Part shown: piece by piece, positions 26,116 through 50,049 of the stretch
Layout: every line of letters starts with the position of its first letter
How positions within the stretch are numbered: the first letter of the stretch is position 1
Assembly (NCBI GenBank): GCA_020621985.1
Contig: JAHRYS010000002.1
Coordinates: forward strand, 1 to 64,000
Length of the DNA: 64,000 bases
DNA from: Candidatus Ferrigenium altingense
Lineage (GTDB): Bacteria; Pseudomonadota; Gammaproteobacteria; Burkholderiales; Gallionellaceae
Reading direction: 5' to 3'
The notes under the pieces: generated by a model
What the model was told of the DNA's origin: nothing
The model's database searches: none
The model's input: only the letters and a program-made list of their open reading frames with translations
Program-made: the position numbers and the translations under genes

Positions 26116-28797
26116 ATGGCATCACTACCCGATTACAGCCCGCCCGACCCCGACCCGCAGGAAACGCAGGAGTGGCTGGACGCGCTTGATTCGGTATTGG
26201 CAAACGAAGGCGCGGAACGCGCGCAGTTCCTGCTCGGGCAGCTGATCGACAAGGCACACCGTTCCGCTGCCGATGTGCCGTTCAGCGCGACCACCCCCTA
26301 TTGCAACACCATCCCGCCGGACAAGGAGCAACGCTCCGCCGGCAACCATGAACTGGAACACCACATCCGCGCGCTGACGCGCTGGAACGCGATGGCGCTG
26401 GTGCTGAACGCCAACCGCGAAGCTTCCGGGCTGGGCGGGCACATCGCCAGCTTTGCTTCGGCGGCGACTTTATACGATGTGGGATTCAATCATTTCTTCC
26501 ACGGCAAGACCGATGACCACGGCGGCGACCTGGTGTATTTCCAGGGGCATTCCGCGCCCGGCATGTATGCGCGCGCCTTTCTCGAAGGCAGGCTCGGCGA
26601 GGAGCGGATGTACAAATTCCGCCAGGAAGCCGAAGGCGGCGGCCTGTCGTCCTATCCGCACCCCTGGCTGATGCCGGACTTCTGGCAGTTTTCCACCGTG
26701 TCGATGGGGCTGGGGCCGCTGATGGCGATTTACCAGGCGCGCTTCATGCGCTATCTGGAACATCGCGGCATCGCGCAAACCGCCGGGCGCAAGGTGTGGG
26801 CCTTCCTCGGCGACGGCGAGACCGACGAGCCGGAATCGCTGGGCGCAATTTCGCTCGCGGGGCGCGAGCGCCTCGACAACCTGATCTTCGTCGTGAACTG
26901 CAACCTGCAACGGCTGGACGGCCCGGTGCGCGGCAACGGCAAGATCATCCAGGAACTGGAAGGCGTATTTCGCGGCGCGGGCTGGAACGTCATCAAGGTG
27001 GTATGGGGCAGGCATTGGGATCGCCTGCTCGCCAAGGACAAGAACGGCCTGCTGCAGAAGCGCATGCAGGAAGTGGTGGACGGCGAATACCAGACCTACA
27101 AGGCCAGGGACGGCGCGTATGTGCGCGAGCATTTCTTCGGCAAATATCCGGAATTGCTGGAAATGGTCGCGGACATGTCCGACGATGAACTCTGGCGGCT
27201 GAATCGCGGCGGGCACGACCCGTACAAGGTGTTCGCGGCCTATGCGGAAGCCGTCAAACATACCGGCCAACCGACCGTGATCCTCGCCAAGACGGTGAAG
27301 GGTTACGGCATGGGCGCATCCGGCGAGGCGCAGAACCCGACCCACCAGCAGAAGAAGATGGATGTGGATTCGCTGCGCAAATTCCGCGACCGTTTCAACC
27401 TCCCGCTGACCGACGCGCAGGTGGAAAGCCTGCATTTCTACCGCCCGCCCGAAGACAGCCTGGAGATGAAATATCTCGGCGAGCGCGGCAAGGCGATGGG
27501 CACGGTGCCGGCGCGCAAGCCGGTCGATGAGCCGTTGCAGATACCGGGACTGGATGCGTTCGACGTGCTGCTGAAAGGCACCGAAGACCGCGAGATTTCC
27601 ACCACGATGGCATTCATGCGCCTGCTCGGCATCCTGATCAAGGATGCGCATATCGGCAAGCAGATCGTGCCGATCGTGCCGGACGAGGCGCGCACTTTTG
27701 GCATGGACGGGTTGTTCCGCCAGATCGGCATCTTCTCGCAGGTCGGGCAGCTTTACACGCCGCAGGATGCCGACCAGTTGATGTTCTACAAGGAAGACGA
27801 GCACGGCCAAATTCTGCAGGAAGGCATCACCGAGGCGGGGGCGATGTCCTCGTGGATCGCCGCCGCGACTTCCTACGCGAACCACGGCACGGCGATGATC
27901 CCGTTCTACATCTACTATTCGATGTTCGGCTTCCAGCGCGTCGGCGACCTGGCCTGGGCGGCGGGCGACATGTGCGCGCGCGGCTTCCTGCTCGGCGGCA
28001 CCGCCGGGCGCACCACGCTGAACGGCGAGGGTTTGCAGCATCAGGACGGGCACAGCCACCTGGCGGCGGCGACCATTCCGAATTGTGTGTCCTATGACCC
28101 GGCCTTTGCGTATGAACTGGCGGTCATCATTCAGGACGGCTTGCGCCGTATGTACATCGATCAGGAAAACCGGTTCTATTACGTGACGGTGATGAACGAG
28201 AATTACGCGCACCCCGCCATCCCGAAGGGCGCGGAAGCAGGCATCATCAAGGGTATGTATCTCTTGAGTGAAGGGGGAAGGGAGAAGGGGGAAGGGCAAA
28301 AAACAAGAGTGCAGTTGCTCGGCAGCGGGACGATCCTGCGCGAAGTGATCGCTGCGGCGGAACTGCTGAAAAAGGATTTCGGTGTGGCAGCAGACATCTG
28401 GAGCGTGACCAGCTTCAACGAGCTGCGCCGCGAAGGGCTGGATTGCGAGCGCTGGAACATGCTGCATCCGGAAACCGGGCGCCGCGCGAGTTATGTCGAG
28501 CAATGCTTGGCCGGGCGCAACGGCCCGGTGGTCGCCGCAACCGATTACATCAAAAGCTATGCGGATCAGATACGCCCCTATGTTCCGGGGCGCTACAAGG
28601 TGCTGGGCACGGACGGCTTCGGCCGCTCGGACACGCGCGTGAAGCTGCGCCGCTTCTTCGAGGTGGATCGTTTCTATATTGCGGTTGCCGCATTGAAGGC
28701 GATGGCCGATGAAGGCGCGATCAAGGCCGGCGAAGTCAGCAAAGCGATCAAGTTGTACCAGATCAATCCGGACAAACCGAACCCGGCAACGGTTTAA
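26116..28797 (+). CDS. aceE: Pyruvate dehydrogenase E1 component, homodimeric (AceE)
   Basis: Thiamine-diphosphate-dependent decarboxylation of pyruvate and transfer to E2. 893 residues, typical for the alpha2 form. ThDP motif GDGETDEPESLGAISLAGRE at about 232-251 with the N residue of VVNCNLQRLDGPVRGNGKII; pyrimidine-domain motifs TEAGAMSSWIAAATSYANHG and LGGTAGRTTLNGEGLQHQDG. Start at ATG 26116 with RBS-like GGAAG. Near residue 720 the frame contains GGREKGEGQKTR, encoded by four heptanucleotide units (28270-28297), where relatives have a short variable loop. Followed by aceF. Confidence 0.96.
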   Translation: MASLPDYSPPDPDPQETQEWLDALDSVLANEGAERAQFLLGQLIDKAHRSAADVPFSATTPYCNTIPPDKEQRSAGNHELEHHIRALTRWNAMALVLNANREASGLGGHIASFASAATLYDVGFNHFFHGKTDDHGGDLVYFQGHSAPGMYARAFLEGRLGEERMYKFRQEAEGGGLSSYPHPWLMPDFWQFSTVSMGLGPLMAIYQARFMRYLEHRGIAQTAGRKVWAFLGDGETDEPESLGAISLAGRERLDNLIFVVNCNLQRLDGPVRGNGKIIQELEGVFRGAGWNVIKVVWGRHWDRLLAKDKNGLLQKRMQEVVDGEYQTYKARDGAYVREHFFGKYPELLEMVADMSDDELWRLNRGGHDPYKVFAAYAEAVKHTGQPTVILAKTVKGYGMGASGEAQNPTHQQKKMDVDSLRKFRDRFNLPLTDAQVESLHFYRPPEDSLEMKYLGERGKAMGTVPARKPVDEPLQIPGLDAFDVLLKGTEDREISTTMAFMRLLGILIKDAHIGKQIVPIVPDEARTFGMDGLFRQIGIFSQVGQLYTPQDADQLMFYKEDEHGQILQEGITEAGAMSSWIAAATSYANHGTAMIPFYIYYSMFGFQRVGDLAWAAGDMCARGFLLGGTAGRTTLNGEGLQHQDGHSHLAAATIPNCVSYDPAFAYELAVIIQDGLRRMYIDQENRFYYVTVMNENYAHPAIPKGAEAGIIKGMYLLSEGGREKGEGQKTRVQLLGSGTILREVIAAAELLKKDFGVAADIWSVTSFNELRREGLDCERWNMLHPETGRRASYVEQCLAGRNGPVVAATDYIKSYADQIRPYVPGRYKVLGTDGFGRSDTRVKLRRFFEVDRFYIAVAALKAMADEGAIKAGEVSKAIKLYQINPDKPNPATV
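28270..28297 (+). repeat. Heptanucleotide repeat (GAAGGGN)4 inside aceE
   Basis: Four consecutive 7-bp units GAAGGGG, GAAGGGA, GAAGGGG, GAAGGGC. The total of 28 bp is not a multiple of three, so neighbouring bases keep the frame; loss or gain of one unit would shift it. Confidence 0.8.
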
Positions 28798-28813
28798 GGT
28801 CAGGAACAGATAC

Positions 28814-30106
28814 GTGGCAGAGACCAAACAAATATCCGTACCGGACATCGGCAACTTCAAGGACGTGAACGTCGTCGAGGTGCTGGTCAAGGCCGGCGAT
28901 GCCGTCAAGGCGGAAGACAGCCTGATCACGCTGGAAACCGACAAGGCGACGATGGACGTACCGTCGCCGTCTGCGGGCGTGGTCAAGGAAGTGAAGATCA
29001 AGGCGGGCGACAAGGTGTCGCAGGGCTCGGTGATCCTGCTGCTGGAAAGCGGCGACGCGGCAGGCGCGCCCGTTGCGCAACCCGCTGCCGCAGCGGCGGT
29101 ATCACCTGCGCCTGCTGCGCAAACCCCGAACCCCTCCCGGCCTCCCCTTGTCAGGGGAGGAGGCGCTGCTCCCTCCCTTGACAAGGGGAGGGCTGGGGAG
29201 GGGTTAGCGCACGCCAGCCCCGCGATCCGCCGCTTTGCGCGCGAGCTTGGCGTGGAGGTGGCGCAAGTCAGGGGCAGCGGCGAAAAAGGGCGCGTCACCA
29301 AGGAGGACGTGCAGAACTTCATCAAGGCCGCACTGGCGCAACCGCGCGGCACAGCGGGCGGCATCGGCCTGCGGGTGGCGGAAATGCCGGTGGTGGATTT
29401 CGCCCGGTTCGGCGCCGTCGAAACCAAGCCGCTGTCGCGCATCCAGAAGCTTTCCGGAGCGAACCTGCATCGCAACTGGGTGAGCATCCCGCATGTCACG
29501 CAATTCGAAGAAGCCGACATCACGGAGATGGAAGCCTTCCGCAAACAACTGGGAACGGAATACGCCGCGCAGGGCATCAAGATCACCCCGCTGGCTTTCC
29601 TGCTCAGGGCCGTGGTGGAAGCCTTGCAGCAATTCCCGGACTTCAACGCTTCGCTCGACGCCAGCGGCGAGAATTTGATCCTGAAAAAATACTTCAACAT
29701 CGGCGTGGCGGTGGATACGCCGGATGGGCTGGTGGTGCCGGTGCTGCGCGACGTGAACCAGAAAGGCATCGTGCAATTGGCCAAGGAACTGGCTGAAATA
29801 AGCGGGCGCGCGCGCGAGAAAAAGATCTCCGCCGCCGAGATGCAGGGCGGCGGCTTCACCATCTCCAGCCTGGGCGGCATCGGCGGCACGGCTTTCACGC
29901 CGATCATCAACGCGCCGGAAGTGGCGATTCTGGGCGTGTCCAGGTCGAGCATGAAGCCGGTTTATCGAGACGGCGCATTCGTGCCGCGCCTGATGCTGCC
30001 GCTGTCACTGTCCTACGACCACCGCGTGATCGACGGCGCGTCCGCCGTGCGCTTCACCGTTTATCTGGCGCAAACGCTGGCGGACATCCGCCGCCTGGCC
30101 CTGTAA
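28814..30106 (+). CDS. aceF: Pyruvate dehydrogenase E2, dihydrolipoyllysine acetyltransferase (AceF)
   Basis: 430 residues from the GTG at 28814 (RBS AGGAA 7 nt upstream); the upstream ATG frame overlaps aceE and lacks family similarity. One lipoyl domain at the N-terminus with ETDKATMDVPS (lipoyl lysine about 43), whereas several proteobacterial E2 proteins have two or three. A peripheral-subunit-binding domain follows at about 135-170 (ASPAIRRFARELGVEV). The catalytic domain ends with SYDHRVIDGA, containing the H-x3-DG acetyltransferase motif. The linker after the lipoyl domain contains a palindromic repeat read in frame (29129-29205). No lpd gene follows; nadD starts 3 nt later. Confidence 0.95.
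   Translation: MAETKQISVPDIGNFKDVNVVEVLVKAGDAVKAEDSLITLETDKATMDVPSPSAGVVKEVKIKAGDKVSQGSVILLLESGDAAGAPVAQPAAAAAVSPAPAAQTPNPSRPPLVRGGGAAPSLDKGRAGEGLAHASPAIRRFARELGVEVAQVRGSGEKGRVTKEDVQNFIKAALAQPRGTAGGIGLRVAEMPVVDFARFGAVETKPLSRIQKLSGANLHRNWVSIPHVTQFEEADITEMEAFRKQLGTEYAAQGIKITPLAFLLRAVVEALQQFPDFNASLDASGENLILKKYFNIGVAVDTPDGLVVPVLRDVNQKGIVQLAKELAEISGRAREKKISAAEMQGGGFTISSLGGIGGTAFTPIINAPEVAILGVSRSSMKPVYRDGAFVPRLMLPLSLSYDHRVIDGASAVRFTVYLAQTLADIRRLAL
29129..29205. repeat. 77-bp palindromic repeat in the aceF linker, in frame
   Basis: Left arm begins AACCCCTCCCGGCCTCCCCT, right arm ends AGGGCTGGGGAGGGGTT; the arms pair with few mismatches around GGCGCTG. The reading frame crosses it as PPLVRGGGAAPSLDKGRAG. 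Same family and same reading frame as the repeat in manC at 47251-47326. Confidence 0.85.
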
Positions 30107-30109
30107 CCG

Positions 30110-30769
30110 ATGAATAGCAAACCGGTAGGCATATTGGGCGGCACCTTCGACCCGATTCATTACGGGCATTTAAGGCTTGCCGAAGAAATGCTGGAGCTGG
30201 CGAACCTGCGGCAAATCCGTTTCATTCCCACCGGCATACCGCCGCACCGCGATGCGCCGCAAGTGTCCGCGCAGCACCGCAGCGCGATGGTGCAGCTGGC
30301 AATCGCCGATCAGCCCGCTTTTGTGCTGGATGACCGCGAAGTCAGGCGAGACACGCCGTGCTATACCGTGAACACGCTGCGCGAACTGCGCGCCGAGCTG
30401 GGGGCGGCGCAGCCGCTGTGCCTGTTGATGGGCGGCGATGCGTTCCTGCAACTGCATACCTGGCATGAATGGGAGCAATTGTTTGAATTGGCGCACATCG
30501 TGGTCGGCTATCGCCCCGGCTTCACGCTGGAGGAGCGCATCCACAGCGCGACAGAGGAACTGCAGCAGCACTACCATGCCCGCCTGTGTACGGCTGCTAT
30601 ACTGTCGCAACAGCCCTGCGGGGGAATTGCCGAACTGGCCATCCCCAAGCTGGAAATTTCCGCCACCGATATCCGCCGCCGCGTGGCGGAAAACCGCACC
30701 ATACGCTACCTGTTGCCCAACGCGGTGGCAGACTATATTCATCAACATCACTTATACAAACCATGCTGA
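30110..30769 (+). CDS. nadD: Nicotinate-nucleotide adenylyltransferase (NadD)
   Basis: Makes deamido-NAD from nicotinate mononucleotide and ATP. 219 residues. GILGGTFDPIHYGHLRLAEE contains the H-x-GH nucleotidyl-transfer motif near residue 20; FIPTGIPPHR and the C-terminal ISATDIRRRVAENRTIRYLL motif complete the family signature. It overlaps rsfS by 7 nt, the usual nadD-rsfS-rlmH arrangement. Confidence 0.95.
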   Translation: MNSKPVGILGGTFDPIHYGHLRLAEEMLELANLRQIRFIPTGIPPHRDAPQVSAQHRSAMVQLAIADQPAFVLDDREVRRDTPCYTVNTLRELRAELGAAQPLCLLMGGDAFLQLHTWHEWEQLFELAHIVVGYRPGFTLEERIHSATEELQQHYHARLCTAAILSQQPCGGIAELAIPKLEISATDIRRRVAENRTIRYLLPNAVADYIHQHHLYKPC

Positions 30770-31125
30770 CTACCGAAGAAAAAACCCAAGCCGTCGTCGC
30801 CGCACTCGAAGACATCAAAGCCACCAACATCACGGTGATCGACACCAGCAAACTCAGCCCGTTGTTCGATCGCATGATCATCGCCAGCGCAACCTCCAGA
30901 CGGCAGACCAAGGCGCTCGCCGACAACGTGGCGGTCAAACTCAAGGAGCGCGGCGAAGAAGTGCTTGGCCGCGAGGGGGAAGACAGCGGCGAGTGGATCC
31001 TGGTGGATCTGGGCGAAGTGCTGGTGCATATCATGCAGCCCGCCATCCGCGATTATTACAACCTCGAAGAGCTGTGGAGCAAGGCGCAGGCGGCGCGGCC
31101 CAAGCTGGCTCCAGCGCCAAAATAG
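30763..31125 (+). CDS. rsfS: Ribosomal silencing factor RsfS
   Basis: 120 residues. Binds L14 of the large subunit and blocks subunit joining when nutrients are scarce. Family motifs: DIKATNITVIDTSKLSPLFD, MIIASATSRRQTKALADNV, EGEDSGEWILVDLGEVLVHI and DYYNLEELW. Start at ATG 30763, inside the end of nadD; a longer frame to 30586 only duplicates nadD sequence. Confidence 0.95.
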   Translation: MLTTEEKTQAVVAALEDIKATNITVIDTSKLSPLFDRMIIASATSRRQTKALADNVAVKLKERGEEVLGREGEDSGEWILVDLGEVLVHIMQPAIRDYYNLEELWSKAQAARPKLAPAPK

Positions 31126-31148
31126 GCATGAAACCGGAAAAACCGTTA

Positions 31149-31205
31149 GCCACAGAGAACACAGAAGAAGTGCGGCCCGTAGGTTTTCTCTGTGCGCTCT
31201 GTGGC
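31149..31205. repeat. Imperfect inverted repeat GCCACAGAGAACACAGAA...CTCTGTGGC
   Basis: Lies between rsfS and rlmH. Arms GCCACAGAGAACACAGAA and TTCTCTGTGCGCTCTGTGGC. A relative of this sequence, GCCACAGATAAACACAGATA, stands at 36335-36355. Confidence 0.7.
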
Positions 31206-31227
31206 TCGAATTGGTTTTTTTAGATTC

Positions 31228-31698
31228 ATGAAGCTCCTCATCGTCTCGGTTGGGCACAAGATGCCGGATTGGATCACGGCGGGCTTCAACGAATACGCCA
31301 AACGGATGCCGCGCGAGGCGAGAATCGAGCTGCTGGAAATCAAGCCGGAACCGCGCAGCACCGGCAAGACCACCGCGCAGATCATGGAGGCCGAAGCGCA
31401 GCGCATTCTCGCCGCCTTGCCGCAGAACTGCCTGCGTATCGCGCTGGATGAGCGCGGCTCGCAGCCGACCACCAAGCAGCTTGCCGCACAGATGCAGGAC
31501 TGGATGCGCGAGGGGCGCGATGTGGCGTTCATCATCGGCGGCGCGGACGGCCTGCATGATTCGGTCAAACAGGCCGCGCAGCAACTGCTGGCGTTATCCG
31601 CGCTGACCTTGCCGCACGCGTTCGTGCGCGTGTTGCTTGCCGAGCAGTTGTATCGTGCGCATAGTCTGTTGCACAATCATCCTTATCACAGAGAATAA
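31228..31698 (+). CDS. rlmH: 23S rRNA pseudouridine-1915 N3-methyltransferase (RlmH)
   Basis: 156 residues, SPOUT family. Starts [20 protein letters not shown], then [26 protein letters not shown], the knotted-fold loop [16 protein letters not shown] and the C-terminal [20 protein letters not shown]. Start at ATG 31228; the upstream extension to 31192 reads the repeat. Part of the nadD-rsfS-rlmH-maf-rng series. Confidence 0.95.
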
Positions 31699-31719
31699 AC
31701 TATCCAATTCAGGGCTAAC

Positions 31720-32340
31720 ATGGCCATTATCCAACCACGTATCTACCTCTCCTCGCAAAGCCCGCGCCGCCGCGAGTTGCTCAAACAGATCGGCATAAAC
31801 TTTGAATTGCTGCTGTTGCGTTCCGATACGCGTCGCGATGTGGATGTGGATGAAACACCCCATGCCGGCGAGGCACCGGAGGATTACGTGCAGCGGGTTT
31901 GCCGGGCTAAGGCCGAAGCGGGTTACAGCGCGCTGCGGTTGCGCAGTCTGCCGCCGTTCCCGGTGCTGACCGCCGACACCACGGTTACGCTGGATGGCAA
32001 GATTTTCGGCAAGCCGGACAATGCCGGACAAGCCGCCGCGATGCTGCGCCAGCTTTCCGGCTGCGAACACCAGGTGCTCAGCGCGGTGGCCATCGCACTG
32101 GGCGAGCATGTCGAAGTTGCGCTTTCCACTTCCACGGTGCGCTTCGCGACGCTTGATGAAGAGCGTATCCAACGCTACCTGCTTACCCGCGAATATACGG
32201 ACAAAGCCGGCGGCTATGCCATCCAGGGGCATGCCGGTGCATTCGTCGAATACATTTCCGGCAGCTATTCCGGCGTGATGGGGTTGCCGCTGTTCGAGAC
32301 CGTGCAGTTGCTGCGCCATTTTGATTACCCGACGCCATAA
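31720..32340 (+). CDS. maf: Maf-family nucleoside triphosphate pyrophosphatase
   Basis: 206 residues. IYLSSQSPRRRELLKQIGI at the N-terminus is the Maf signature; VLTADTTVTLDGKIFGKP and the YLLTREYTDKAGGYAIQGHA segment follow. Maf proteins hydrolyse dTTP/UTP or modified pyrimidine nucleotides; this one is closer in pattern to the YhdE type (dTTP/UTP). Located between rlmH and rng as in many betaproteobacteria. Confidence 0.92.
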   Translation: MAIIQPRIYLSSQSPRRRELLKQIGINFELLLLRSDTRRDVDVDETPHAGEAPEDYVQRVCRAKAEAGYSALRLRSLPPFPVLTADTTVTLDGKIFGKPDNAGQAAAMLRQLSGCEHQVLSAVAIALGEHVEVALSTSTVRFATLDEERIQRYLLTREYTDKAGGYAIQGHAGAFVEYISGSYSGVMGLPLFETVQLLRHFDYPTP

Positions 32341-32366
32341 GCCCGAAAAAAGCAGTCAGCGGGGCG

Positions 32367-32424
32367 GTAGGTGCGAATTCATTCGCACGAACAATCGGTT
32401 ACATGCGAATGAATTCGCACCTAC
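32367..32424. repeat. Inverted repeat GTAGGTGCGAATTCATTCGC...
   Basis: Perfect 21-bp arms (32367-32387 and 32404-32424) starting GTAGGTGCGAATTCATTCGC, with a 16-nt loop, between maf and rng. Each arm contains a smaller GCGAAT palindrome. Confidence 0.9.
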
Positions 32425-32482
32425 CAATGCCGCCAATACGTCGGAGCAATAATATTTTCGCCAACTTTTTTTCTAGGATGAT

Positions 32483-33937
32483 ATGAGCGAAGAAATCCTG
32501 ATCAACGTCACCCCGCAGGAAACCCGCGTCGCGGTGATGCAACTCGGCGTGGTGCAGGATCTGCACATCGAACGCAGCAGCAGTTGCGGCATCGTCAGCA
32601 ATGTCTATCTCGGCAAGGTCAGCCGCGTATTGCCGGGCATGCAATCCGCCTTTATCGACATCGGCCTGGAACGCTCGGCGTTCCTGCATGTGGCGGACAT
32701 CTGGGAAAACAGCAACAACGGCGATGCCGCCAAACCGATCGAGAAAATCCTGTTCGAGGGCCAGACCCTGCTGGTGCAAGTGATCAAGGAACCCATCGGC
32801 AGCAAAGGCGCGCGGCTGTCCACGCAGCTCAGCATCGCCGGCCGCCTGCTGGTCTATCTGCCGCAGGAAACCCATATCGGCGTGTCGCAACGCATCGAAA
32901 GCACGGCGCAGCGCGATGCCTTGCGCGCCAAGTTGCAGGCCGTGTTGCCGCCGGAGCATCAGGGCGGATACATCATCCGCACTGTCGCGGAAGCGGTGGA
33001 TGACCCGGATTTCCTGGCGGACATCACCTATCTGGATAAACTCTGGAGCAACCTGAAAAGTGCGGCAAAAAACGCCAGCGCGCCGCAATTGCTGTATCAG
33101 GAGCTCAATATCAGCCTGCGGGTATTGCGCGATTTCGTGAGCCGCGATACGACCCGCATCCTGGTGGATTCGCGTAGCACTTACCAAAAAATGCTGGAGT
33201 TCGCGCAGGACTACAACACTGCCGCAACAAGCAGGCTGGAGCACTACCCCGGTGTGCGCCCGCTGTTCGACCTGCACGGGGTGGAAGAGGAGATCGAACG
33301 CGCCTTGTCCAAGCGCGTCGAGCTCAAGTCCGGCGGCTATCTCATCATCGACCAGACCGAGGCGCTGACCACCATCGACGTGAACACCGGCGGCTTTGTC
33401 GGGCTGCGCAATTTCGACGACACCATCTTCAAGACCAATCTCGAAGCCACGCAGGTCATTGCGCGGCAGCTGCGTTTGCGCAATCTGGGCGGCATCATCA
33501 TCTGCGACTTCATCGACATGGATACGCAGGAGCATCGCGACGCGGTGCTGGAAGAATTCAAAAAAGCCCTGTCACGCGACCACACGCGCATCAGCGTGAA
33601 CGGTTTTTCCTCGCTGGGACTGGTGGAAATGACGCGCAAGCGCACCCGCGAGAGCCTGGCGCATATATTGTGCGAACCCTGCCCGACCTGCCAGGGGCGC
33701 GGCGAGGTGAAGACCGCGCAGACCGTGTGCTACGAGATCCTGCGCGAAATCCTCCGCGAGGCGCGCCAATTCAACGCGCGCGAATATCGCATTCTGGCGT
33801 CGCAACAGGTAATCGATCTGTTTCTGGAAGAAGAATCACAGGCTCTGGCCGAGCTTTCCGGCTTCATCGCCAAACCGATCTCCATGCTGGTCGAGTCCCT
33901 TTACAGCCAGGAACAATATGATGTCATCCTGATGTGA
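32483..33937 (+). CDS. rng: Ribonuclease G
   Basis: Endoribonuclease for 16S rRNA 5' maturation and mRNA decay. 484 residues, shorter than RNase E and lacking its C-terminal scaffold. N-terminal S1 domain (GIVSNVYLGKVSRVLPGMQS, AFIDIGLERSAFLHVADI), catalytic DNase-I-like part with LIIDQTEALTTIDVNTGGFV and FIDMDTQEHRD, and the zinc-link CEPCPTCQGRG near residue 397. RNase G motif order is complete. Its downstream intergenic space is occupied by an IS3-family element that starts 39 nt after the stop. Confidence 0.95.
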   Translation: MSEEILINVTPQETRVAVMQLGVVQDLHIERSSSCGIVSNVYLGKVSRVLPGMQSAFIDIGLERSAFLHVADIWENSNNGDAAKPIEKILFEGQTLLVQVIKEPIGSKGARLSTQLSIAGRLLVYLPQETHIGVSQRIESTAQRDALRAKLQAVLPPEHQGGYIIRTVAEAVDDPDFLADITYLDKLWSNLKSAAKNASAPQLLYQELNISLRVLRDFVSRDTTRILVDSRSTYQKMLEFAQDYNTAATSRLEHYPGVRPLFDLHGVEEEIERALSKRVELKSGGYLIIDQTEALTTIDVNTGGFVGLRNFDDTIFKTNLEATQVIARQLRLRNLGGIIICDFIDMDTQEHRDAVLEEFKKALSRDHTRISVNGFSSLGLVEMTRKRTRESLAHILCEPCPTCQGRGEVKTAQTVCYEILREILREARQFNAREYRILASQQVIDLFLEEESQALAELSGFIAKPISMLVESLYSQEQYDVILM

Positions 33938-34015
33938 GGATCATGCGTTGATAAGGCCGGTCTGCTAGACTATGTTTGACCTTGCCCCTGTAATCCGTAT
34001 CTCTTAACACGCTCA

Positions 34016-34942
34016 TTATGCGGCATCCTTCAACTGTGCCGCCAACCAGTTTTTCTCGAACTGCATCGGACTGATATAGCCCAGTGTCGAGTGCAGCCTT
34101 CTGTGGTTGTAGTACGTCAGCCAGTCAATCACCTCGTCCATCGCCTGGCGCCGTGTTTCAAACCGCATGCCGTACAACCGTCCCACCTTCAATGACCCCC
34201 ACAAGCTTTCCGTTGGCGCGTTGTCCCAGCAGTTCCCTTTGCGGCTCATTGAGCTTTGCATGCCGTATTCAACCAGCGTTTGCTGGAATGTGTGGCTGCA
34301 ATACTGACTACCCCGATCCGAGTGGAAGATCAGCCCGGGCTCCGGTCGTCTCCTGAACCATGCCATCCTGAGCGCATCCGTCACCAAGCGGGTCTGCATG
34401 TGGGCTTGCATGCTCCAGCCGACTACCTGACGGCTGTACAGATCAAGGACGATAGCCAGATACAACCAGCCTTCATCGGTCTGGATATAGGTGATGTCGC
34501 TAGTCCATACACAGTCGGGCGTATCAGGCTGGAAGTTGCGATTGAGCAAGTTCGGCGCGATCGGCAGGTTATGCTTGCTGTCGGTGGTAACAACAAATTT
34601 ACGCTTTCCTCGTGCCTTGATGCCGTGTTCCTTCATGAGCCGCCGAACCCGTTCTTTCCAGACACGCACACCACTGGCACGGAGTTCTTGCCAGATTCGC
34701 GGCCAGCCGTATTCGCCTTTGCTGGCGGCATGCGCTGCCTTGATGTGAACCAGCAGGGCTTCATCATTGATGCGCTTGCCAGGCGTCGCGGGGTGTCCAG
34801 AACCTTTGCGACGCTGATACTCAAAGTATCCGCTCGCGCTGACGTTCAGCACTTCGCATTGCAGGGTGATCGGCCAACGATTTTTATGCCGCTCAATCCA
34901 GGCGTACTTCACGCTGACTCCCGCGCAAAGTACGCCGTCGCT
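34016..34942 (-). CDS. IS3-family transposase OrfB (DDE integrase domain)
   Basis: rve-type integrase. HTH_21 segment IKAAHAASKGEYGWPRIWQE, catalytic core with D (VWTSDITYIQTDEGWLYLAI), second D (GLIFHSDRGSQYCSHTFQ) and E (SRKGNCWDNAPTESLWGSLK), then YYNHRRLHSTLGYISPMQ. It lacks its own start near the 5' end; it is probably made as an OrfAB fusion by -1 slippage on the A7G run at 34938-34945. All three catalytic acidic residues are present, so it looks active. Confidence 0.9.
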   Translation of the reverse strand, partial: SDGVLCAGVSVKYAWIERHKNRWPITLQCEVLNVSASGYFEYQRRKGSGHPATPGKRINDEALLVHIKAAHAASKGEYGWPRIWQELRASGVRVWKERVRRLMKEHGIKARGKRKFVVTTDSKHNLPIAPNLLNRNFQPDTPDCVWTSDITYIQTDEGWLYLAIVLDLYSRQVVGWSMQAHMQTRLVTDALRMAWFRRRPEPGLIFHSDRGSQYCSHTFQQTLVEYGMQSSMSRKGNCWDNAPTESLWGSLKVGRLYGMRFETRRQAMDEVIDWLTYYNHRRLHSTLGYISPMQFEKNWLAAQLKDAA

Positions 34943-42128: not shown

Positions 42129-42175
42129 AAGAGCAGTCTACAATCAAAAAAACCAGCAAACAAAAAACCATAAAA

Positions 42176-42196
42176 GGCGGAACTACAAGTCCCGCC
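42176..42196 (-). terminator. Terminator-like hairpin upstream of sspA, minus strand
   Basis: Read on the minus strand GGCGGGACT-TGT-AGTTCCGCC followed by TTTTATGG and TTTTTT. It precedes sspA by ~50 nt, so it would be either a leader attenuator or the end of an unrecognised minus-strand transcript. Confidence 0.45.
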
Positions 42197-42432: not shown

Positions 42433-42461
42433 TTGAGCCCGCAGGGTGGTGTTGCTATACT
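42433..42461 (+). promoter_or_regulatory. Sigma-70-type promoter for the PCMT-family gene
   Basis: TTGAGC, 17-bp spacer, TATACT with a TG-like extension (TTGC before it). Predicted start about 42468, giving a 50-nt leader with AGGAGG RBS at 42507-42512. Confidence 0.55.
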
Positions 42462-42517
42462 GGTCAAAAATCCGTTTATGTGGGAACACTAATCGCGCAG
42501 TAATTCAGGAGGTTGAG

Positions 42518-43171: not shown

Positions 43172-43250
43172 GCTTTCGTGTTGGTATTGCGCAACGTGGC
43201 ACTAAGCTATAGTATTAGCAAAACCTAATATAATGGTTGCGCAAAAACCG

Positions 43251-44570
43251 ATGAAACTAAAACCGCTTCTCTTGGCAATCCTGCTCGGCGCAAGTAGCGG
43301 GGCGCTGGCTGCCGACCTGCTGGAAATTTTCCGCGCCGCGCAAGCGAACGATCCGGTGTTTGCCGCCGCACGCGCCACCATGCAAGCCGGTCAGGAAAAG
43401 CTGCCGCAAGGCCGCTCGCTGTTGATGCCCAGCATCAGCCTCAGCGCGAACAGCACGTTTAACGACCAGACAGTCCGGTCTCAGGGGGCCTTCCCGCCAA
43501 GCGGCAACTTTCGCTACAACAGCCACGGCTACGGCGTGAACCTGACGCAACCGTTGTTCCGCCAGCAAAACTGGCTCTCCTATACCGAAGCCGAATTGCA
43601 GGTTGCACAAGCCGAGGCGCAATTCAGGGTTACCGAACAGGATCTGATCCTGCGCGTCGCGCAAGCCTACTTCGATGTGCTGATCGCGCAAGACAGCGTG
43701 CAGCTCGCCGAGGCGCAGAAGACCGCCATCTCCGAGCAGCTGGAACAGGCCAAACGCAACTTCGAGGTGGGCAGCGCCACCATTACCGATACCCACGAAG
43801 CGCAAGCGCGTTACGACCTGACCAGTGCGCAGGAAATCGCCGCGCAGAACAGCCTGGAAATCAAGCGCCGTACCTTGCAGCAACTGATCAATGCGATACC
43901 GAAAGACCTCAGACACCTCGGCAAGGAATTCAAGCTGGAAGCCCCGCAACCCGCCGACATGGAAAAATGGGTGGACGATGCCCAGTTGAACAGCCTGCAA
44001 CTCGCCATCGCGCAAGCGGGCGCCGAGATTGCCGAGAAAGAAGTGGCGCGCAACCGTGGCGGGCACTATCCCACGGTGGACTTGGTGGCGAATTATTCCA
44101 ACAACCAGTCCAACGGCGGCAGTTTCGGGGTGGGCAGCGACAACACCAGCAAGAGCGTCGGCGTGCAACTGAACCTGCCGCTGTTTCAGGGTGGGGCGGT
44201 CAATTCAAAATGGCGCGAAGCGGAAGCCAATCGCGAGCGCGCCATACAAGAACTGGAAAACACCCGCCGCACCGTCGCGCTGCAAACCCGCCAAGCCTAT
44301 CTCGGCGTAGTCAGCGGCATCGCCCAGGTCAAGGCATTGCAGCAGGCCCTCACCTCCAGCGAAAGCGTCCTGGAAGCGAGCAAGCTGGGCCAGGAAGTGG
44401 GCGTGCGCACCAACCTCGATGTGCTGAATGCGCAGCAACAGTTATATTCAACACGCCGCGATCTGTACCAGGCCGAGTACAGTTACTTGTTGAGTCAGCT
44501 GCGCCTGAAGGCAGCGGTGGGTTTGCTGGATGAAAAAGACTTAGGCAGAATCAATCAAGCGCTCTACTAA
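43251..44570 (+). CDS. tolC: TolC-family outer membrane efflux channel
   Basis: 439 residues from ATG 43251, which gives a signal peptide MKLKPLLLAILLGASSGALA directly followed by ADLLEIF; an ATG at 43233 adds six residues. Two OEP repeats with the usual pattern: AAQANDPVFAAARATMQAGQ, GVNLTQPLFRQQNW, then AQAGAEIAEKEVARNRGGHY, GVQLNLPLFQGGAVNSKWRE and LDVLNAQQQLYSTRRDLYQA. Forms a trimeric channel for type I secretion or drug efflux. No inner-membrane partners are adjacent. Confidence 0.93.
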   Translation: MKLKPLLLAILLGASSGALAADLLEIFRAAQANDPVFAAARATMQAGQEKLPQGRSLLMPSISLSANSTFNDQTVRSQGAFPPSGNFRYNSHGYGVNLTQPLFRQQNWLSYTEAELQVAQAEAQFRVTEQDLILRVAQAYFDVLIAQDSVQLAEAQKTAISEQLEQAKRNFEVGSATITDTHEAQARYDLTSAQEIAAQNSLEIKRRTLQQLINAIPKDLRHLGKEFKLEAPQPADMEKWVDDAQLNSLQLAIAQAGAEIAEKEVARNRGGHYPTVDLVANYSNNQSNGGSFGVGSDNTSKSVGVQLNLPLFQGGAVNSKWREAEANRERAIQELENTRRTVALQTRQAYLGVVSGIAQVKALQQALTSSESVLEASKLGQEVGVRTNLDVLNAQQQLYSTRRDLYQAEYSYLLSQLRLKAAVGLLDEKDLGRINQALY

Positions 44571-44691
44571 CGCATCCAACTGGCACTACCCAATCCCTAG
44601 CCCCAAGCGGCGACCTTACTACTACATGCGCATACGCTCGTGCAGCGCAACCAAATACCGAGTTTGGACTTTTCACCCTTGTGAGCGCTCG

Positions 44692-45840
44692 TCACAGCTT
44701 TTGCTGGCGGTAGCGATGCCAGATAACGGAACAAAGGGAAAATAGCAGGGCAAGAAAAAATCCGGCAGCCAATCCAATGGCTGCCGGCTTCAGATAACGC
44801 GGCTTGCTCGCACTGATATACGTGGGTTGCTCCAGTCCCAAGGTGAACCGGGTATGAATTGAAACCATGTCATGCTTGATGTTGTTGAGTATTGAAATTT
44901 TATTCCAATCGGAAGCCTGCAAATCTTTTCTCATGCCGGACTCGATCCGCATAAGTTCCGCTACCGCCGACAGCCCATCAAAATTTTTGCCAATCACCGG
45001 CATTGCCTGTGACAGAAAATCATTCATAATTGCGAGTTGGTTTTTCCTGCTGGTTAAGCGGGATAAGTCTTCTTTTAGTGCGCTGATGTCCTTATTGACG
45101 GCGATAAGCTGCGTGATGACGGGCAAATACTTGGCACTGGATTCCTTGGGGTCCATAGACTGAGTAATGATTGAGGCGGAATTTATAGGGAATTTCACTT
45201 TAAGCAACTCAAGGTCGGCCATGCGACTTCTTAAGTATGCCATTTCGATTTCCAATACAGAAATACTCTTTGCAATTTCAGATTCAGAATTCAGCAAATC
45301 GATCTGATAGTTCGCGATGACATCTTTCAAAGCCAGGTACGCAGCCCCACTCCGCAAAAATGAGGTCGCGGTGGAAAGGTTTTTGAGGGCATCCTCTTTG
45401 CTTGATCCTGTTGTCGTAATAACAAAATCCTTGATTTTTGTAAATTCCGCGTCTTGCTATTCTTTGGACATGCCGAATATTGCCTTGGCGTCTTCTTTGT
45501 TAATAGAAAACGTGGGAACAACATTTTTCTGCCACCATTTCTCACTGGATAACCCCCCTAAAAAGCCTTCGCCATTATTAGTTGCTTCCGAAACCTTGTC
45601 AGCCAAAATAGGCAAATTTCTTTTCAGGTTTTTCCAGGTTAAATAATCGATACCGGATTTATTGATAAGTGTCGCTTCTGCCTCGTATTTACCCAATAAA
45701 AGTGTCCCGCCCAACGCCATGATGAGGCCAAAAAAGGCGCCCATTGAAAGAACCTTCCACTTGGTTACAAAAAAGTCGAGTATGTCATTGAGACTAATTT
45801 CCTGCCCGTCTTCGGCGATTTGTTGTTCTGTATTGGTCAT
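44692..45840 (-). pseudogene. Wzz-like polysaccharide copolymerase interrupted by one in-frame TAG
   Basis: One continuous minus-strand frame of 383 codons with a single amber codon at 45457-45459. The first part (MTNTEQQIAEDGQEISLNDI onwards) has a membrane helix GAFFGLIMALGGTLLLG; after the stop the frame goes on as QDAEFTKIKDFVITTTGSS, through a coiled coil, to a second helix AIGLAAGFFLALLFSLCSVI and a basic end. This is Wzz-like architecture. Both sides are intact, so a single base change (for example CAG or TGG to TAG) made it; nonsense suppression cannot be excluded. Base composition is more A+T-rich than neighbours. Confidence 0.8.
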
Positions 45841-46176
45841 GTCGATTCCAAAATCACAACGTCGTTACATATCGAAATATAATTGGCCGCTTATATTGCG
45901 CAATGCGCTTGTCTCTGCACGCCGGCCCGCACGAATACAAAGATTGGCTTCAAAGCTATTCGAGCAAGTATCACTTTGATGTTTTACAATGGCCGCGACT
46001 TTACAATATTTTCCATATTGATGCATGCTTACGCAAGGACGGCAGGCAGATTTAGCGAGGCTAGCGTCATGCAGTTGCAGGGGAGGGATAAACAAAAAAT
46101 GCTTTTCATTGCCTCTCCCGGCGCGGGTATGTTGCCGGCTATTTGCAAACAAAAACGTCACTATTAAGGCAGCTTC
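45841..46176. other. Intergenic region between the wzz-like pseudogene and the glycan operon
   Basis: 336 bp, divergent on both sides. It should hold the promoter of the wzz-like gene; I see no convincing boxes, gene or repeat. Confidence 0.4.
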
Positions 46177-46325
46177 TTGAAACAAGAAAAAATTTGCGCG
46201 ACTATCCTTGCCGGCGGCAGCGGCAGCCGTTTGTGGCCGCTATCGCGCCAGCATTTACCCAAGCAATTCCTGTCGCTGGATGGTGATGTATCGCTGCTGC
46301 AAACCACCATCAACCGTCTATTGGA
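46177..46325 (+). pseudogene. Duplicated 5' fragment of manC
   Basis: Encodes [20 protein letters not shown] and [20 protein letters not shown], nearly the same as the first ~45 residues of ManC at 46739, with about 85-90% DNA identity by eye. The frame runs without a stop into the MarR-type gene, so a chimeric 189-residue protein could be made. It cannot be a working transferase because everything beyond the nucleotide-binding loop is missing. Confidence 0.8.
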
Positions 46326-46338
46326 CAAGATTTTCAGT

Positions 46339-46367
46339 TTGACATCCCCGTTCGCGGGTGTTGTAAT
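46339..46367 (+). promoter_or_regulatory. Strong promoter with an operator-like dyad for the EPS MarR regulator
   Basis: TTGACA (46339-46344), 17-bp spacer, TGTAAT (46362-46367). The spacer contains ACATCCCCG-TT-CGCGGGTGT, an imperfect inverted repeat (7 of 9). This lies just upstream of the MarR ATG and could be its own operator. Confidence 0.6.
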
Positions 46368-46398
46368 ATGCGCTGTTCAACCACTGAACGCACCACAG

Positions 46399-46746
46399 AT
46401 GCTGGACGAATCCACCCATTACGGGTTGCTCAAAACACTGGAAAACAATCCAAGCCTTTCCCAACGAGACTTGGCAAAGCGTTTGGACATCAGCCTCGGC
46501 AAAGTCAATTTCTGCCTGAATGCGCTGGTCGCGAAGGGCAGCCTCAAGATCAATAATTTCCGCAACAGCGACAACAAGCTGGCCTATGCCTACCTGCTGA
46601 CCCCGCATGGAATCGAGGAAAAGGCGCGCATGACGGTGCAGTTCCTCAAATTCAAGGTGCAGGAATATGAGCGGCTGCGCGCGGAGATCGAAGAATTGCA
46701 GCGTGAAGCGGCTCAGAAAAGCCTGATGGAGAGCGCCCATGAGTGA
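46399..46746 (+). CDS. MarR-type EPS-associated transcriptional regulator
   Basis: 115 residues from [20 protein letters not shown]. Winged helix with [20 protein letters not shown] as the recognition region, [17 protein letters not shown], and a C-terminal coiled coil ([18 protein letters not shown]). This matches the small MarR-like family found with exopolysaccharide clusters (TIGR04176 type). The open frame extends upstream to 46177 through a duplicated manC fragment; I prefer the ATG at 46399 because a promoter stands at 46339-46367 and the family starts here. No strong RBS. It overlaps manC by 8 nt. Confidence 0.82.
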
Positions 46747-48280
46747 TGTTTATGCAGTTATCCTCGCCGGCGGCAGCGGCAGCCGCTTGTGGCCGATGTC
46801 GCGGCAGCATTTACCCAAGCAGTTTTTATCGCTGGACGGTGACGTATCGCTGTTGCAAACCACGATCAATCGCCTGTCTCCAGTGATCGGTGCCAGGAAC
46901 GTCCTGATCGTTACGCAAGAATCCCACGCCAAAGGCGAGGCCTATCATGCCCTGCTGCCGTATCAGACACTGTTTGAACCGATCGGGCGCAACACCGCGC
47001 CAGCCATCGCACTGGCCGCCGCTTACCTGATGGCGGAGGGGGGCGACCCCATTATGGTCGTGCTGCCTGCCGACCATATCATCAAAGACGAAGCGCGTTT
47101 CCGCGCACATCTGCACACGGCGATCGAAGCCGCCGAAAGCAGCAAACTAGTCACCTTTGGTATTCAGCCAACCCGTCCCGATACCGGGTTTGGCTACATC
47201 AAAATAAAAAACAGGACTGAGGTCACAGGTCTGAGGGCTGAAGAAAATCAAACCCCTCCCAACCTCCCCTTATCAGGGGAGGAGTTGCTTGGCTCCTCCC
47301 CTGATAAGGGGAGGTTGGGAGGGGTTGGGGTTGCTCGAACCTCAATCCCCGATCCCCAGTCCTGCATTTATGAAGTGGAGCGGTTTACCGAGAAGCCGGA
47401 TATTGCCACCGCCGAACGTTTCTTGAAGGAAGGTGATTACTACTGGAATTCGGGCATGTTCGTGTGGCGCGCCTCGGTAATCCTTGCCGAGATCCGGCAG
47501 CACCTGCCGACAGTGTACCAAGTAATACAAACCATTCTTGCCGAAAGCCGCGCTGGCATAACCTTCCAGCAAGCCGTGGAAAAACATTTCGCCACTATGC
47601 CATCGATCTCGATCGACTACGGCGTGCTGGAAAAGTCCGATTGCGTCTCACTCATCCCCTGCGACATCGGCTGGAACGATGTAGGCAGCTGGCAGGCGGT
47701 GCACGAGATTTCTGCCAAGGACGAAAATGGCAATGCCCTGCAAGGCAACGTCATAGCAGTGGATTGCAAAAATAGCCTGATCCGTGCCGAAAAACGCCTG
47801 GTCGCCGCCATCGGAGTGGAAGACCTGTGCGTGGTCGAGACTGCCGATGCCGTGCTGATTTCGAGGAGCGACCAGACCCAGCGTGTACGCGAAGTAGTGG
47901 ATGCATTGCAGCAAAAAGGTGCAACCGAACATATCTATCATGTCAAAGTGCATCGCCCGTGGGGCAGTTACACAGTGCTGGAAGAAGATCCGGAAGGCTT
48001 CAAGCTCAAGCGTATCGAAGTTGCGCCGGGTGCCAGACTCAGCCTACAAAGCCACAAGCGGCGCTCCGAGCATTGGGTGGTGGTGTCCGGTACAGCTACG
48101 GTTACCAATGGCGAGGAGATCATTACCGTGCACAAGAACCAAAGCACCTATATCCCGATCGGCACGAAACACCGCTTGGAGAATCGCGGGCTCGAACCGC
48201 TGCATATCGTCGAAATACAGGTAGGCGATTACTTGGGCGAAGACGATATTCAACGTTATGAAGATAACTACGGCAGGTAA
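46739..48280 (+). CDS. manC: Mannose-1-phosphate guanylyltransferase / mannose-6-phosphate isomerase (ManC)
   Basis: 513 residues, bifunctional type II. GT-A pyrophosphorylase domain: [20 protein letters not shown] with [35 protein letters not shown] and [13 protein letters not shown]. Cupin isomerase domain at the end: [39 protein letters not shown] and [13 protein letters not shown]. Supplies GDP-mannose to gmd and fcl. Between [12 protein letters not shown] and [11 protein letters not shown] about 35 residues are encoded by a perfect palindromic repeat (47251-47326) not seen in usual ManC. No manB/algC is in the window. Confidence 0.95.
47251..47326. repeat. 76-bp repeat with perfect 34-bp arms inside manC, in frame
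   Basis: Left arm 47251-47284 starts AACCCCTCCCAACCTCCCCT, right arm 47293-47326 is its exact complement, loop TTGCTTGG. Translated as [20 protein letters not shown]. Closely related to the aceF repeat at 29129-29205. Confidence 0.95.
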
Positions 48281-48286
48281 CTGAAT

Positions 48287-48544
48287 ATGCCAGAGATATC
48301 ACGCTTTCTGGGAATTATCATATACATGAACTGGGCAGATCATCCGTTGCCACATTTTCATGCCAAATATGGAAACTACGAAATTACAGTAGAAATTGCC
48401 TCCGGTGTCGTCCGGGGCGAGTTTCCCAAAAGAGCGCTACGTGCTGTTTTGGAATGGCTGGATGAACATAAGACGGAGCTTCTTGAAGACTGGCTCCTGG
48501 CGCAGCAACGAAAGCCATTGAACCCGATACCACCATTGGAGTAA
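48287..48544 (+). CDS. DUF4160-family small protein
   Basis: 85 residues. PEISRFLGIIIYMNWADHPL with PHFHAKYG, then VEIASGVVRGEFPKRALRAV and EWLDEHKTELLEDWLLAQQR are the DUF4160 pattern. Starts 6 nt after manC. It is followed at once by a DUF2442 gene, its usual partner; the pair is often regarded as toxin-antitoxin-like, but no activity is proven to my knowledge. Confidence 0.85.
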   Translation: MPEISRFLGIIIYMNWADHPLPHFHAKYGNYEITVEIASGVVRGEFPKRALRAVLEWLDEHKTELLEDWLLAQQRKPLNPIPPLE

Positions 48545-48548
48545 TGCA

Positions 48549-48806
48549 ATGATTCTTCATACTGTAACCGTCAAACCACTGAAAAATTACCGGCTATATT
48601 TGACTTTCAATAACGGCATCTCTGGGGAAGTTGATCTGACACATGAATTATGGGGCGAGGTTTTCGAGCCGCTGAAAGATATAACGCTCTTCCAAACCGC
48701 CCATCAGGACGAGGTGATGCAAACAGTCTCATGGGCCAACGGAGCGGATTTTGCCCCGGAATTTCTGATTGAAATGCTCATCAAAGAGCAACAACAAGCC
48801 GTATGA
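48549..48806 (+). CDS. DUF2442-family small protein
   Basis: 85 residues. VTVKPLKNYRLYLTFNNGIS, GEVDLTHELWGEVFEPLKD and VSWANGADFAPEFLIEML match DUF2442, the typical neighbour of DUF4160. Starts 4 nt after the DUF4160 stop. Its stop overlaps a 27-codon open frame as ATGA. Confidence 0.85.
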   Translation: MILHTVTVKPLKNYRLYLTFNNGISGEVDLTHELWGEVFEPLKDITLFQTAHQDEVMQTVSWANGADFAPEFLIEMLIKEQQQAV

Positions 48807-48886
48807 CTAAAGTGAGCACTGACGAACTTTCGCGAATTTTAGGTGGCTTGCGCGCCGCCGTTCAAAAACAAAGAGACCAAAAATGA
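48803..48886 (+). CDS. 27-residue micro-ORF linking DUF2442 and gmd
   Basis: [20 protein letters not shown] followed by QKQRDQK. Its ATG overlaps the DUF2442 stop (ATGA 48803-48806) and its stop overlaps the gmd ATG (ATGA 48883-48886). It could be a translational relay that couples gmd to the genes before it. I do not recognise the peptide; it may also be accidental. Confidence 0.4.
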
Positions 48887-50049
48887 CCAGTAGAACTAAC
48901 AGTCCTCAGTCCTCGGTGCAGCCGAAGGTTGCGCTAATCACCGGCGTTACCGGACAAGACGGAGCCTATCTTGCCGAATTTCTGTTAAACAAGGGTTACG
49001 AGGTGCATGGCATGAAGCGTCGCAGCTCCATGTTCAACACCGCGCGTATCGACCATTTGTTCCATGATGTGCATGAAAAAGGCCTGCCGTTCTTCCTGCA
49101 TCACGGCGACATGACCGACTCTTCCAGCCTGACGCACATCATCCAAAAAGTGCAGCCGGATGAGATCTACAATCTCGCGGCGCAGAGCCATGTCGCGGTC
49201 TCGTTCGAGGAGCCGGAATACACTGCTGAGTCCGATGCACTCGGTGCGCTGCGCATCCTGGAAGCGATCCGCATCCTCGGCCTGACCAAAAAAACCCGCT
49301 TCTACCAGGCGTCCACTTCCGAACTGTATGGACTGGTACAAGAGACTCCGCAAAAGGAAACGACCCCGTTCTATCCGCGCAGCCCTTACGCAGTTGCCAA
49401 GCTCTATGCCTACTGGATCACCGTCAACTACCGCGAGGCGTATGGCATCTATGCCTGCAACGGCATCCTGTTCAACCACGAAAGCCCGATCCGCGGCGAG
49501 ACCTTCGTCACCCGTAAGATCACCCGCGCACTGGCGCGCATCAAGCTCGGCCTGCAGGAATGCCTGTATCTGGGCAACATGAACTCCCTGCGCGATTGGG
49601 GCCATGCCAAAGACTACGTCGAGATGCAATGGCTCATGCTGCAACAAGACCACCCGGAAGATTTCGTCATCGCCACCGGCGTGCAGTACAGCGTACGCGA
49701 TTTCGTCAATGCCGCCGCCAAGGAACTCGGCATGAATATCCGCTGGGAAGGCAACGGCGTCGACGAGAAGGGCTATCTGCTCCCCTCCCCCGCAAGCGTG
49801 GGAGGGGCTGGGGGAGAGGGGTGCGGCAATGGCAAATGCATCGTCCAGGTCGACCCGCGCTATTTCCGTCCCACCGAAGTCGAGACCCTGCTGGGGGATG
49901 CCAGCAAAGCCAAGAATAAACTCGGCTGGGTACCCAAGATCACCTTCCACGAACTGGTTGCCGAAATGGTGCGCGAAGACCTCAAGGGCGCCGAGCGCGA
50001 CGAGCTGGTCAAGAAGCACGGCTTTGCTGCCTACAATTATCATGAGTAA
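48883..50049 (+). CDS. gmd: GDP-mannose 4,6-dehydratase (Gmd)
   Basis: 388 residues, extended [23 protein letters not shown] at the N-terminus, [38 protein letters not shown], the catalytic [18 protein letters not shown] and Y-x-x-x-K in [40 protein letters not shown] near the end is also typical. Converts GDP-mannose to GDP-4-keto-6-deoxymannose for Fcl. Around residue 305 the frame includes [15 protein letters not shown], encoded by a repeat (49779-49822), in place of a short loop. Confidence 0.95.
49779..49822. repeat. G/C-rich palindromic repeat inside gmd, in frame
   Basis: CTCCCCTCCCCCGCAAGCGT followed by GGGAGGGGCTGGGGGAGAGGGG. Same family, and read in the same frame, as the repeat in cobQ (51-101), giving a peptide of nearly the same kind. 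Confidence 0.8.

Follow-up and report, generated by a model that had tools for sequence, protein, structure and literature searches.

Rickettsia palindromic elements (RPEs) are repeats that lie within open reading frames (ORFs) and leave the frame preserved, and orthologous sites may hold different groups of the element, as described in the available part of PubMed Central article PMC3767692. Repetitive extragenic palindromes (REPs) tagged with GTAG or CGTC occur within genes of Opitutus terrae, Xanthomonas, Thauera, Thioalkalivibrio and others; according to the available part of PMC3733652, many of them lie in repair genes, a single gene can hold two, and two xanthomonads have different REPs at about the same recB site. 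The heptanucleotide repeats GGGAATC and GGGGA(C/T)T of Xanthomonas and Nostoc form G-rich arrays that are partly intragenic (PMC4692102, available part). This article concerns repeats of these kinds in a 64,000-nucleotide stretch of DNA (the window) from Candidatus Ferrigenium altingense. The genome is 2.18 Mb in size and 81% complete, and its contig 5 begins with this stretch. An earlier note on this DNA had reported repeats in cobQ, aceF, manC, gmd, aceE and fcl, and all six are located where it placed them, in open frames. The nearest named matches to the window's aceE come from metagenome-assembled genomes (MAGs) titled Nitrosomonadales (89%), Gallionella (87%), Gallionellales (86%) and Gallionellaceae (83%).

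The inserts in cobQ, aceF, manC and gmd are palindromes, while those in aceE and fcl are heptanucleotide arrays. The four palindromes are accounted for by two families, designated A (AACCCCTCCCnnCCTCCCCTTGTCAGGGGAGG) and B (CCCTCTCCCGCnnGCGGGAGAGGG). The parallel with RPEs that the earlier note drew is apt, as these too are multi-copy palindromes in frame within ORFs; RPEs and the Wolbachia palindromic elements (WPEs) also resemble them in that orthologous sites can hold different groups (PMC3767692, in the part available). RPEs are 100–150 bp long in that same text, whereas the elements described here span about 24–84 nt and thus fall short of RPE length. A and B are also without the CGTC end reported for the RPEs of R. 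conorii in the available text of PMC3733652, and their host, to judge from its relatives, is probably free-living, unlike the hosts of RPEs.

With the GTAG/CGTC-tagged REPs, A and B share palindromes of 20–40 bp, many copies, occurrence as singles and dimers, and a location within ORFs; compared with the intragenic REPs in the available part of PMC3733652, the present data follow one loop over 30 genomes, including its empty states. Unlike tagged REPs, A and B were found beside no genes for REP-associated tyrosine transposases (RAYTs) in 20 chosen regions, and their ends are not enriched for either tag (GTAG near the ends of 16 and CGTC near those of 20 of the 199 sites compiled below; 11% and 23% in random windows). 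A REP doublet forming a hairpin (REPIN) consists of two REPs placed head to head across a short spacer. Family A is similar in that two elements can be inverted as a forward–reverse (F-R) dimer, never R-F; the differences from REPINs are that no adjacent RAYT was found and that neither A nor B has a GTAG end. The anatomy of A and B is REP/REPIN-like (a palindrome, singles plus inverted doublets, and high but uneven copy number), and they are not filed here as REPINs. The heptamers differ from those of Xanthomonas and Nostoc in the available text of PMC4692102 in being in frame within loops (aceE, manC), with the manC array hosting a palindrome. Palindromic repeats inserted in coding DNA are so far known chiefly from Rickettsia and a scattering of REP-rich genomes. 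What is added to the known in-frame REPs is the presence of untagged families at scale in one lineage, the observation of no broken gene by a test with a sensitivity control, an avoided but usually open frame, and the repeated switching of families in a loop of GatB.

Repeat insertions in six enzymes

The repeats and their host genes are listed below by window position.

about 53..92, minus strand: element B in cobQ, after the N-terminal domain; core hairpin at 66-91
26116..28797, plus strand: aceE, intact; protein fits its Pfam family
28270..28297, plus strand: GAAGGGG heptanucleotide array in aceE, coding for residues 719-728
28814..30106, plus strand: aceF, intact; protein fits its Pfam family
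29129..29205, plus strand: element A dimer in aceF, in the lipoyl/E3-binding linker; peptide NPSRPPLVRGGGAAPSLDKGRAGEGL
46739..48280, plus strand: manC, intact; protein fits its Pfam family
47213..47364, plus strand: AGGACTG-type inverted heptamer insert in a manC loop, with element A nested within it
47251..47326, plus strand: element A dimer in manC, with perfect 34-nt arms
48883..50049, plus strand: gmd, intact; protein fits its Pfam family
49777..49821, plus strand: element B insert in gmd, 45 nt, from the orthologue alignment
50053..50117, plus strand: AGGTGCA heptanucleotide array of 9.3 units, directly 3' of gmd
50487..51566, plus strand: fcl, intact; protein fits its Pfam family
51157..51174, plus strand: CTTGCCC heptamers in fcl, within a longer segment common with relative G032

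The aceF and manC copies both start with AACCCC and end with GGGGTT. No other perfect hairpin arm in the window exceeds 17 nt (loops up to 8 nt), against 34 nt in manC. The C-terminal domain of cobQ lies beyond the window edge; in the CobQ of another genome (L219), a B element occupies the corresponding junction.

Orthologues that are without the segment in gmd, manC and GatB, the last of which is considered further below, bear out the earlier claim that these are insertions. In the gmd alignment (the window's own genome plus 29 relatives; 57 of 61 genomes had a match), the 45-nt insert stands at one site in four of the 30 genomes, namely the own genome, G042, G082 and G031, and is missing from 26; as judged by eye, the pairing of the palindrome has been lost in two of the four carriers. 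The manC alignment holds loci of 24 of the 29 relatives, one of which does not cover the site (50 of 61 genomes had a match), and the majority of the 23 covering relatives are without the segment. An AGGACTG-type heptamer insert is present in the manC loop without element A in L165, L166, L167, L170 and L174, a different short segment is held by L171 and L181, and a few others are slightly longer. Among the genomes aligned, A is nested in the heptamer insert only in that of the window. A separate feature of manC is that its start is duplicated upstream (46203-46319 versus 46759-46875; 117 nt, 87% identical), so that a manC fragment precedes the intact gene.

The aceF linker was compared with 29 relatives (all 61 genomes had a match). 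The same A insert is found in the own genome, G043 and G040, an inverted A with an identical left flank in G017, and a further A copy in G089, while G048 has none. The aceE loop varies too: the own genome and L064 have GAAGGGG units, L063 a related stretch rich in G, and L052 and L053 carry GGGAGTG-like and GAGGACA units, respectively, while L054, L059, L061 and L062 have none. Most of the extra length in fcl is the extension common to G032, and the heptamer part amounts to about six residues.

Where they were inspected, the inserts fall in loops or linkers, in agreement with the earlier note: the lipoyl/E3-binding linker of aceF, the segment after the N-terminal domain of cobQ, and a low-confidence coil of aceE. 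In an AlphaFold model of the latter (30 aligned sequences; mean predicted local distance difference test score, pLDDT, of 72), residues 719-730 form a coil between two strands, and pLDDT is <50 at residues 722-728.

Anatomy and distribution of the palindrome families

Family A consists of a core (CCTCCCCTTGTCAGGGGAGG) and an outer arm (AACCCCTCCC), and occurs singly or as a head-to-head dimer; the F-R arrangement was seen at 15 of 90 sites and R-F at 0 of 90. Family B consists of its core, CCCTCTCCCGCnnGCGGGAGAGGG, plus longer arms. There is no sequence relationship between the two. The elements of the own genome are about 28-84 nt long with cores of 20-24 nt, and one copy, including its flanking arms, extends over 113 nt.

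In the own genome, pattern B gives 32 strand matches (≤3 mismatches) versus 0 for a reversed control; the palindromic core causes the majority of B places to be hit on both strands. Pattern A gives 21 matches (10 forward, 11 reverse) and its reversed control 19, a comparison that is uninformative because A is C/T-rich and near-symmetric. Within the genus, the A core is present in 21 of 49 genomes (the own included), with up to 111 strand hits in one of them, and B in 48 of 61. The A core was found in none of 32 genomes of other families. In a sample of 200 genomes from across the phylum, exact matches to B are patchily distributed over 11 (the own included), with up to 45 copies outside the genus. 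Copy numbers differ widely within the genus and range from 0 to >100. Neither the 20-nt A cores nor the 20-nt B core (with its AA loop) was found in the 20 papers listed, of 22 retrieved, from the open-licence text of PubMed Central.

Frame state of the insertion sites

A set of 199 distinct sites was compiled from the loci of the own genome, matches chosen from those listed in relatives, and 30 loci taken one per genome. The relatives contributed 29 of 32 B places and 14 A hits from G042, about 21 of 42 B places from G089, and A sites from G013 (18 of 20), G021 (20), G018 (19) and G040 (one). Identical sites were merged and orthologous sites kept apart, except where gene clusters are given. 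Each site was scored with a codon-score classifier trained on the window and relatives. An earlier version of the classifier was dropped, as it recognised just 37% of random positions in the window as in frame and its training had taken the longest frames, some of them antisense.

Eighty-four sites, corresponding to 64 gene clusters, were called in frame; 99 were not coding on both sides, nine were too near a contig end, and seven were coding on both sides but not open. The own genome contributed 15 in-frame calls among 32 sites. The cobQ site was too short to be scored, and L022, which lies close to where a helicase-like frame ends, went uncalled although that frame is open. Read by eye, each of the seven coding but not open sites proved to be a gene end or intergenic. 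As a control, random in-frame pseudo-sites in the window were called in 53.6% of cases and single-base deletions were flagged in 41.6%. If genic insertions arose in frame and shifted at a ratio of 1:2, about 130 flagged sites would therefore be expected by the arithmetic of this analysis. No broken gene was found among the sites scored, by a classifier that flags about four in ten frame shifts. The in-gene share of 84 of 190 scored sites lies below the 83% coding share of the window; intergenic places are thus enriched, as filtering would give.

Reading frames and encoded peptides

The earlier note had placed the aceF and manC copies in one shared frame. This does not hold for the first arm, which differs (NPSRPPLVRGG in aceF), and only the second arms share DKGR, while the common frame proposed for the cobQ and gmd copies is real (PSPAxGxG). 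More generally, the consistent frame use that was supposed is not supported. Counted by gene cluster, five of the six frames of A are in use (LPLSGE in 10, SPDKGR in 9, PPLTRG in 5, PPLVRG in 3 and SPCQGR in 1), and the sixth, which contains a stop, is never used. For B, two of the three frame classes account for all but two cores, with in-frame cores distributed 30, 29 and 2 of 61 and gene clusters (each counted once per class) 27, 22 and 2 of 51.

The third B frame is avoided. In non-coding copies, the shares of the three classes that are open, measured over the core plus 15 nt on each side, are.312,.340 and.349, and the skew among gene clusters is pronounced (chi-square p 1e-5; third class, binomial 2e-7). 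This frame, which encodes an arginine-rich peptide (LSRKRER), is usually open yet appears in 2 of 51 clusters where about 18 would be expected. A target bias by codon position could be an alternative source of the deficit. Frames are filtered, then, though not toward one common frame. The suggestion of selection for stop-free insertions fits better when recast as the loss of frame-breaking insertions, because length modulo 3 would have to be filtered too. An even spread over frames combined with many broken genes, which the note had named as evidence against its proposal, was not found: B frames are uneven and no broken gene was seen.

Inserted residues are 57% proline, glycine, serine or alanine versus 30% in the flanks, and 16% hydrophobic versus 33%. 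As a separate observation, element A encodes the final residues of what is apparently the same gene in two genomes (L286 and L326; ..RRYTSPDKGRPGGV, ..RRYTSPEKGRLGGVKG).

Turnover at the GatB loop

GatB offers a view of one loop in the own genome and 29 relatives (59 of 61 genomes had a match). Between its FFE and KLCANW motifs, the loop has 9–11 residues in 15 genomes and 15–35 in the other 15. By content, A is present in 4 genomes, B (a longer variant included) in 9 and other segments in 2, and 15 loops are short. The longer variant (CCTCAATCCTCTCCCGC..GCGGGCGAGGAGGCGAACG) was considered as a third family and rejected, as it contains the B core. Different families therefore occupy one loop; for instance, the own genome holds A where its sister G043 holds B, and the sister pairing is fully supported. 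In G021, two C-rich palindromes stand side by side. When the insert is left out of the tree, parsimony requires 14 changes of state, and shuffled labels give a mean of 14.0 (the shuffle used labels with the longer B variant split off; 14 changes are needed under either labelling). PrmC provides a second case, a single site being occupied by A in two genomes and by B in another.

Origin and persistence of the inserts

Taken together, these data are best read as REP/REPIN-like repeats on which selection acts as a filter and which permissive loops tolerate, and this account is considered likely. Short proliferating palindromes (A and B) and heptanucleotide arrays would keep entering the genomes of this lineage and would land at many places. 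Insertions that shift the frame or strike a folded core would be purged by selection, while those in frame within surface loops or inter-domain linkers would persist because the encoded peptide is flexible (Pro/Gly/Ser-rich). Since there would be few such permissive loops per protein, they would be recolonised repeatedly by unrelated repeats in different species. Survival would then come from filtering and tolerance rather than benefit, and the elements would be mobile. A Y1/RAYT-type transposase is a candidate mover for B only, the copy number of which correlates with PF01797 (Y1) hits (rho 0.60, n=61, among genomes that are related and partly incomplete).

Several points weigh against this account. 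The classifier is only moderately sensitive, so broken genes could hide among the 99 uncalled sites; orthologous sites are counted separately within the 84; at least one in-frame call is probably spurious (L227, on the minus strand and antisense to a further called frame); and shifted insertions in essential genes would be invisible because such cells die. With regard to mobility, A or B lay beside RAYT-type genes in 0 of 20 regions chosen from the matches, A copy number does not follow Y1 hits (rho 0.14, n=49), and >2 hits of A or B also occur in 3 of the 10 genomes that yielded no Y1 hit. No target-site duplication was seen in the alignments, as inspected by eye, and no transposition event was observed. 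The GatB tree is also weak, with 5 of 27 inner branches starred and the bootstrap not settled; on the starred branches alone, 3 changes each are forced for the empty state, A, and the longer B variant.

A further possibility concerns where new copies land. Occupied loops may plausibly be preferred landing sites as well, given the insert nested within another in manC and the exchange of families seen in GatB. Replacement at pre-occupied sites goes further, in that a loop holding a repeat would become a site of landing or recombination where one family gives way to another, through nesting and later deletion or through gene conversion via shared G/C-rich arms. It is a tentative proposal, to which several of the alignments lend some weight: A is nested in a manC heptamer insert that is present alone in five aligned relatives, the own genome and its sister differ at GatB, the aceF element of G017 is inverted with its left flank unchanged, and the GatB of G021 has two adjacent palindromes. 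The short state of half of the GatB loops speaks for frequent gain or loss of occupation, however, and permissive loops alone predict the same coincidences, the nesting cases having come from aligned loci rather than a genome-wide scan. If true, hotspots would be made by the repeats themselves and not by protein tolerance alone. A bolder and rather unlikely version treats occupied loops as exchange sites, opened by a heptamer or palindrome and then subject to replacement or nesting by other families, such that coding "docking loops" in essential enzymes would have their length and sequence rewritten as species diverge, with the frame kept; such loops would amount to a standing generator of in-frame diversity powered by selfish repeats.

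That the inserted peptides are themselves beneficial and selected, whether as flexible linkers, as binding segments or otherwise, would suit the recurrent occupation of the same loops, the linker-like composition and the avoidance of one usually open B frame. It is nonetheless improbable, given that the inserts sit in unrelated proteins, are missing from close relatives, vary in length and frame, and in gmd have lost their pairing in two of four genomes. Ancient inserts inherited by descent, diverging in sequence without mobility, as argued for some Rickettsia elements in the available part of PMC3767692, would explain the gmd insert common to four genomes and the aceF insert common to three, each at the same site; the alternation of unrelated A and B at one GatB site without phylogenetic clustering, together with copy numbers that run from none to more than a hundred in one genus, makes this explanation very unlikely. 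Repeats are a recognised cause of assembly error, and many of the genomes are fragmented and incomplete, but the same sites recur with intact frames in independent assemblies, and an artefact of assembly or binning is hardly credible.

About sixty sampled genomes of one genus supply many replicate sites in empty, single, double and switched states. Such a genus allows one to ask which loops of essential enzymes accept insertions, at what pace repeats in coding sequence are replaced, whether the encoded peptide decides which frames survive, and what agent mobilises the repeats. This lineage, related to Gallionella, has such repeats in frame in loops of many housekeeping enzymes, and because one loop can hold different repeats in different species it is a good setting for studying how selfish DNA persists inside genes, with the caution that such segments should not be misread as conserved protein features.

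Other carriers and further repeats

Carriers were named by NCBIfam or Pfam, with "like" denoting a match below the curated cut-off; twenty were scanned with NCBIfam. Those of the own genome include MutS, a heavy-metal P-type ATPase (two elements), GatB, a CusA/CzcA RND pump, PrmC, a PglX-like methylase, a GlcD-like oxidase, a FadB-like protein and an AddA-like helicase. Carriers in relatives include LeuS (two elements), CysS, MetH, PurL, a HemD-like protein, CobQ, NuoG, MutS and an AddA-like helicase. One carrier (L002) is without an NCBIfam match and has GAF and HD domains by Pfam. The two elements of the own P-type ATPase (L008 and L025, contig C3) are both in frame, one being immediately N-terminal to the GDGINDAP motif. 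The own AddA-like gene (L037, contig C8) holds B plus an in-frame inverted GTCATTCCGGCGCAGGCCGGAATCC pair (PVIPAQAGIQ..DSGLRRND), a third repeat type. Also on contig C3, a Y1 transposase gene (L349) lies amid GTAGGAGC palindromic repeats in an ordinary REP layout unlike that of A and B.

The window from 28000 to 51700 gave no Rfam match at the gathering score. Elsewhere in the window, inverted repeats at 9086-9340 and 14527-14778 (188 nt, 79%), with perfect hairpins AAAGAAAAGTCCC..GGGACTTTTCTTT, bracket a 5.2-kb segment. A 21-nt tandem repeat of 3.6 copies lies at 25071-25145 within a predicted gene of ~650 codons, and an inverted repeat pair at 33976-34059 and 56031-56114 (84 nt, 86% complementary) is separated by 22 kb.

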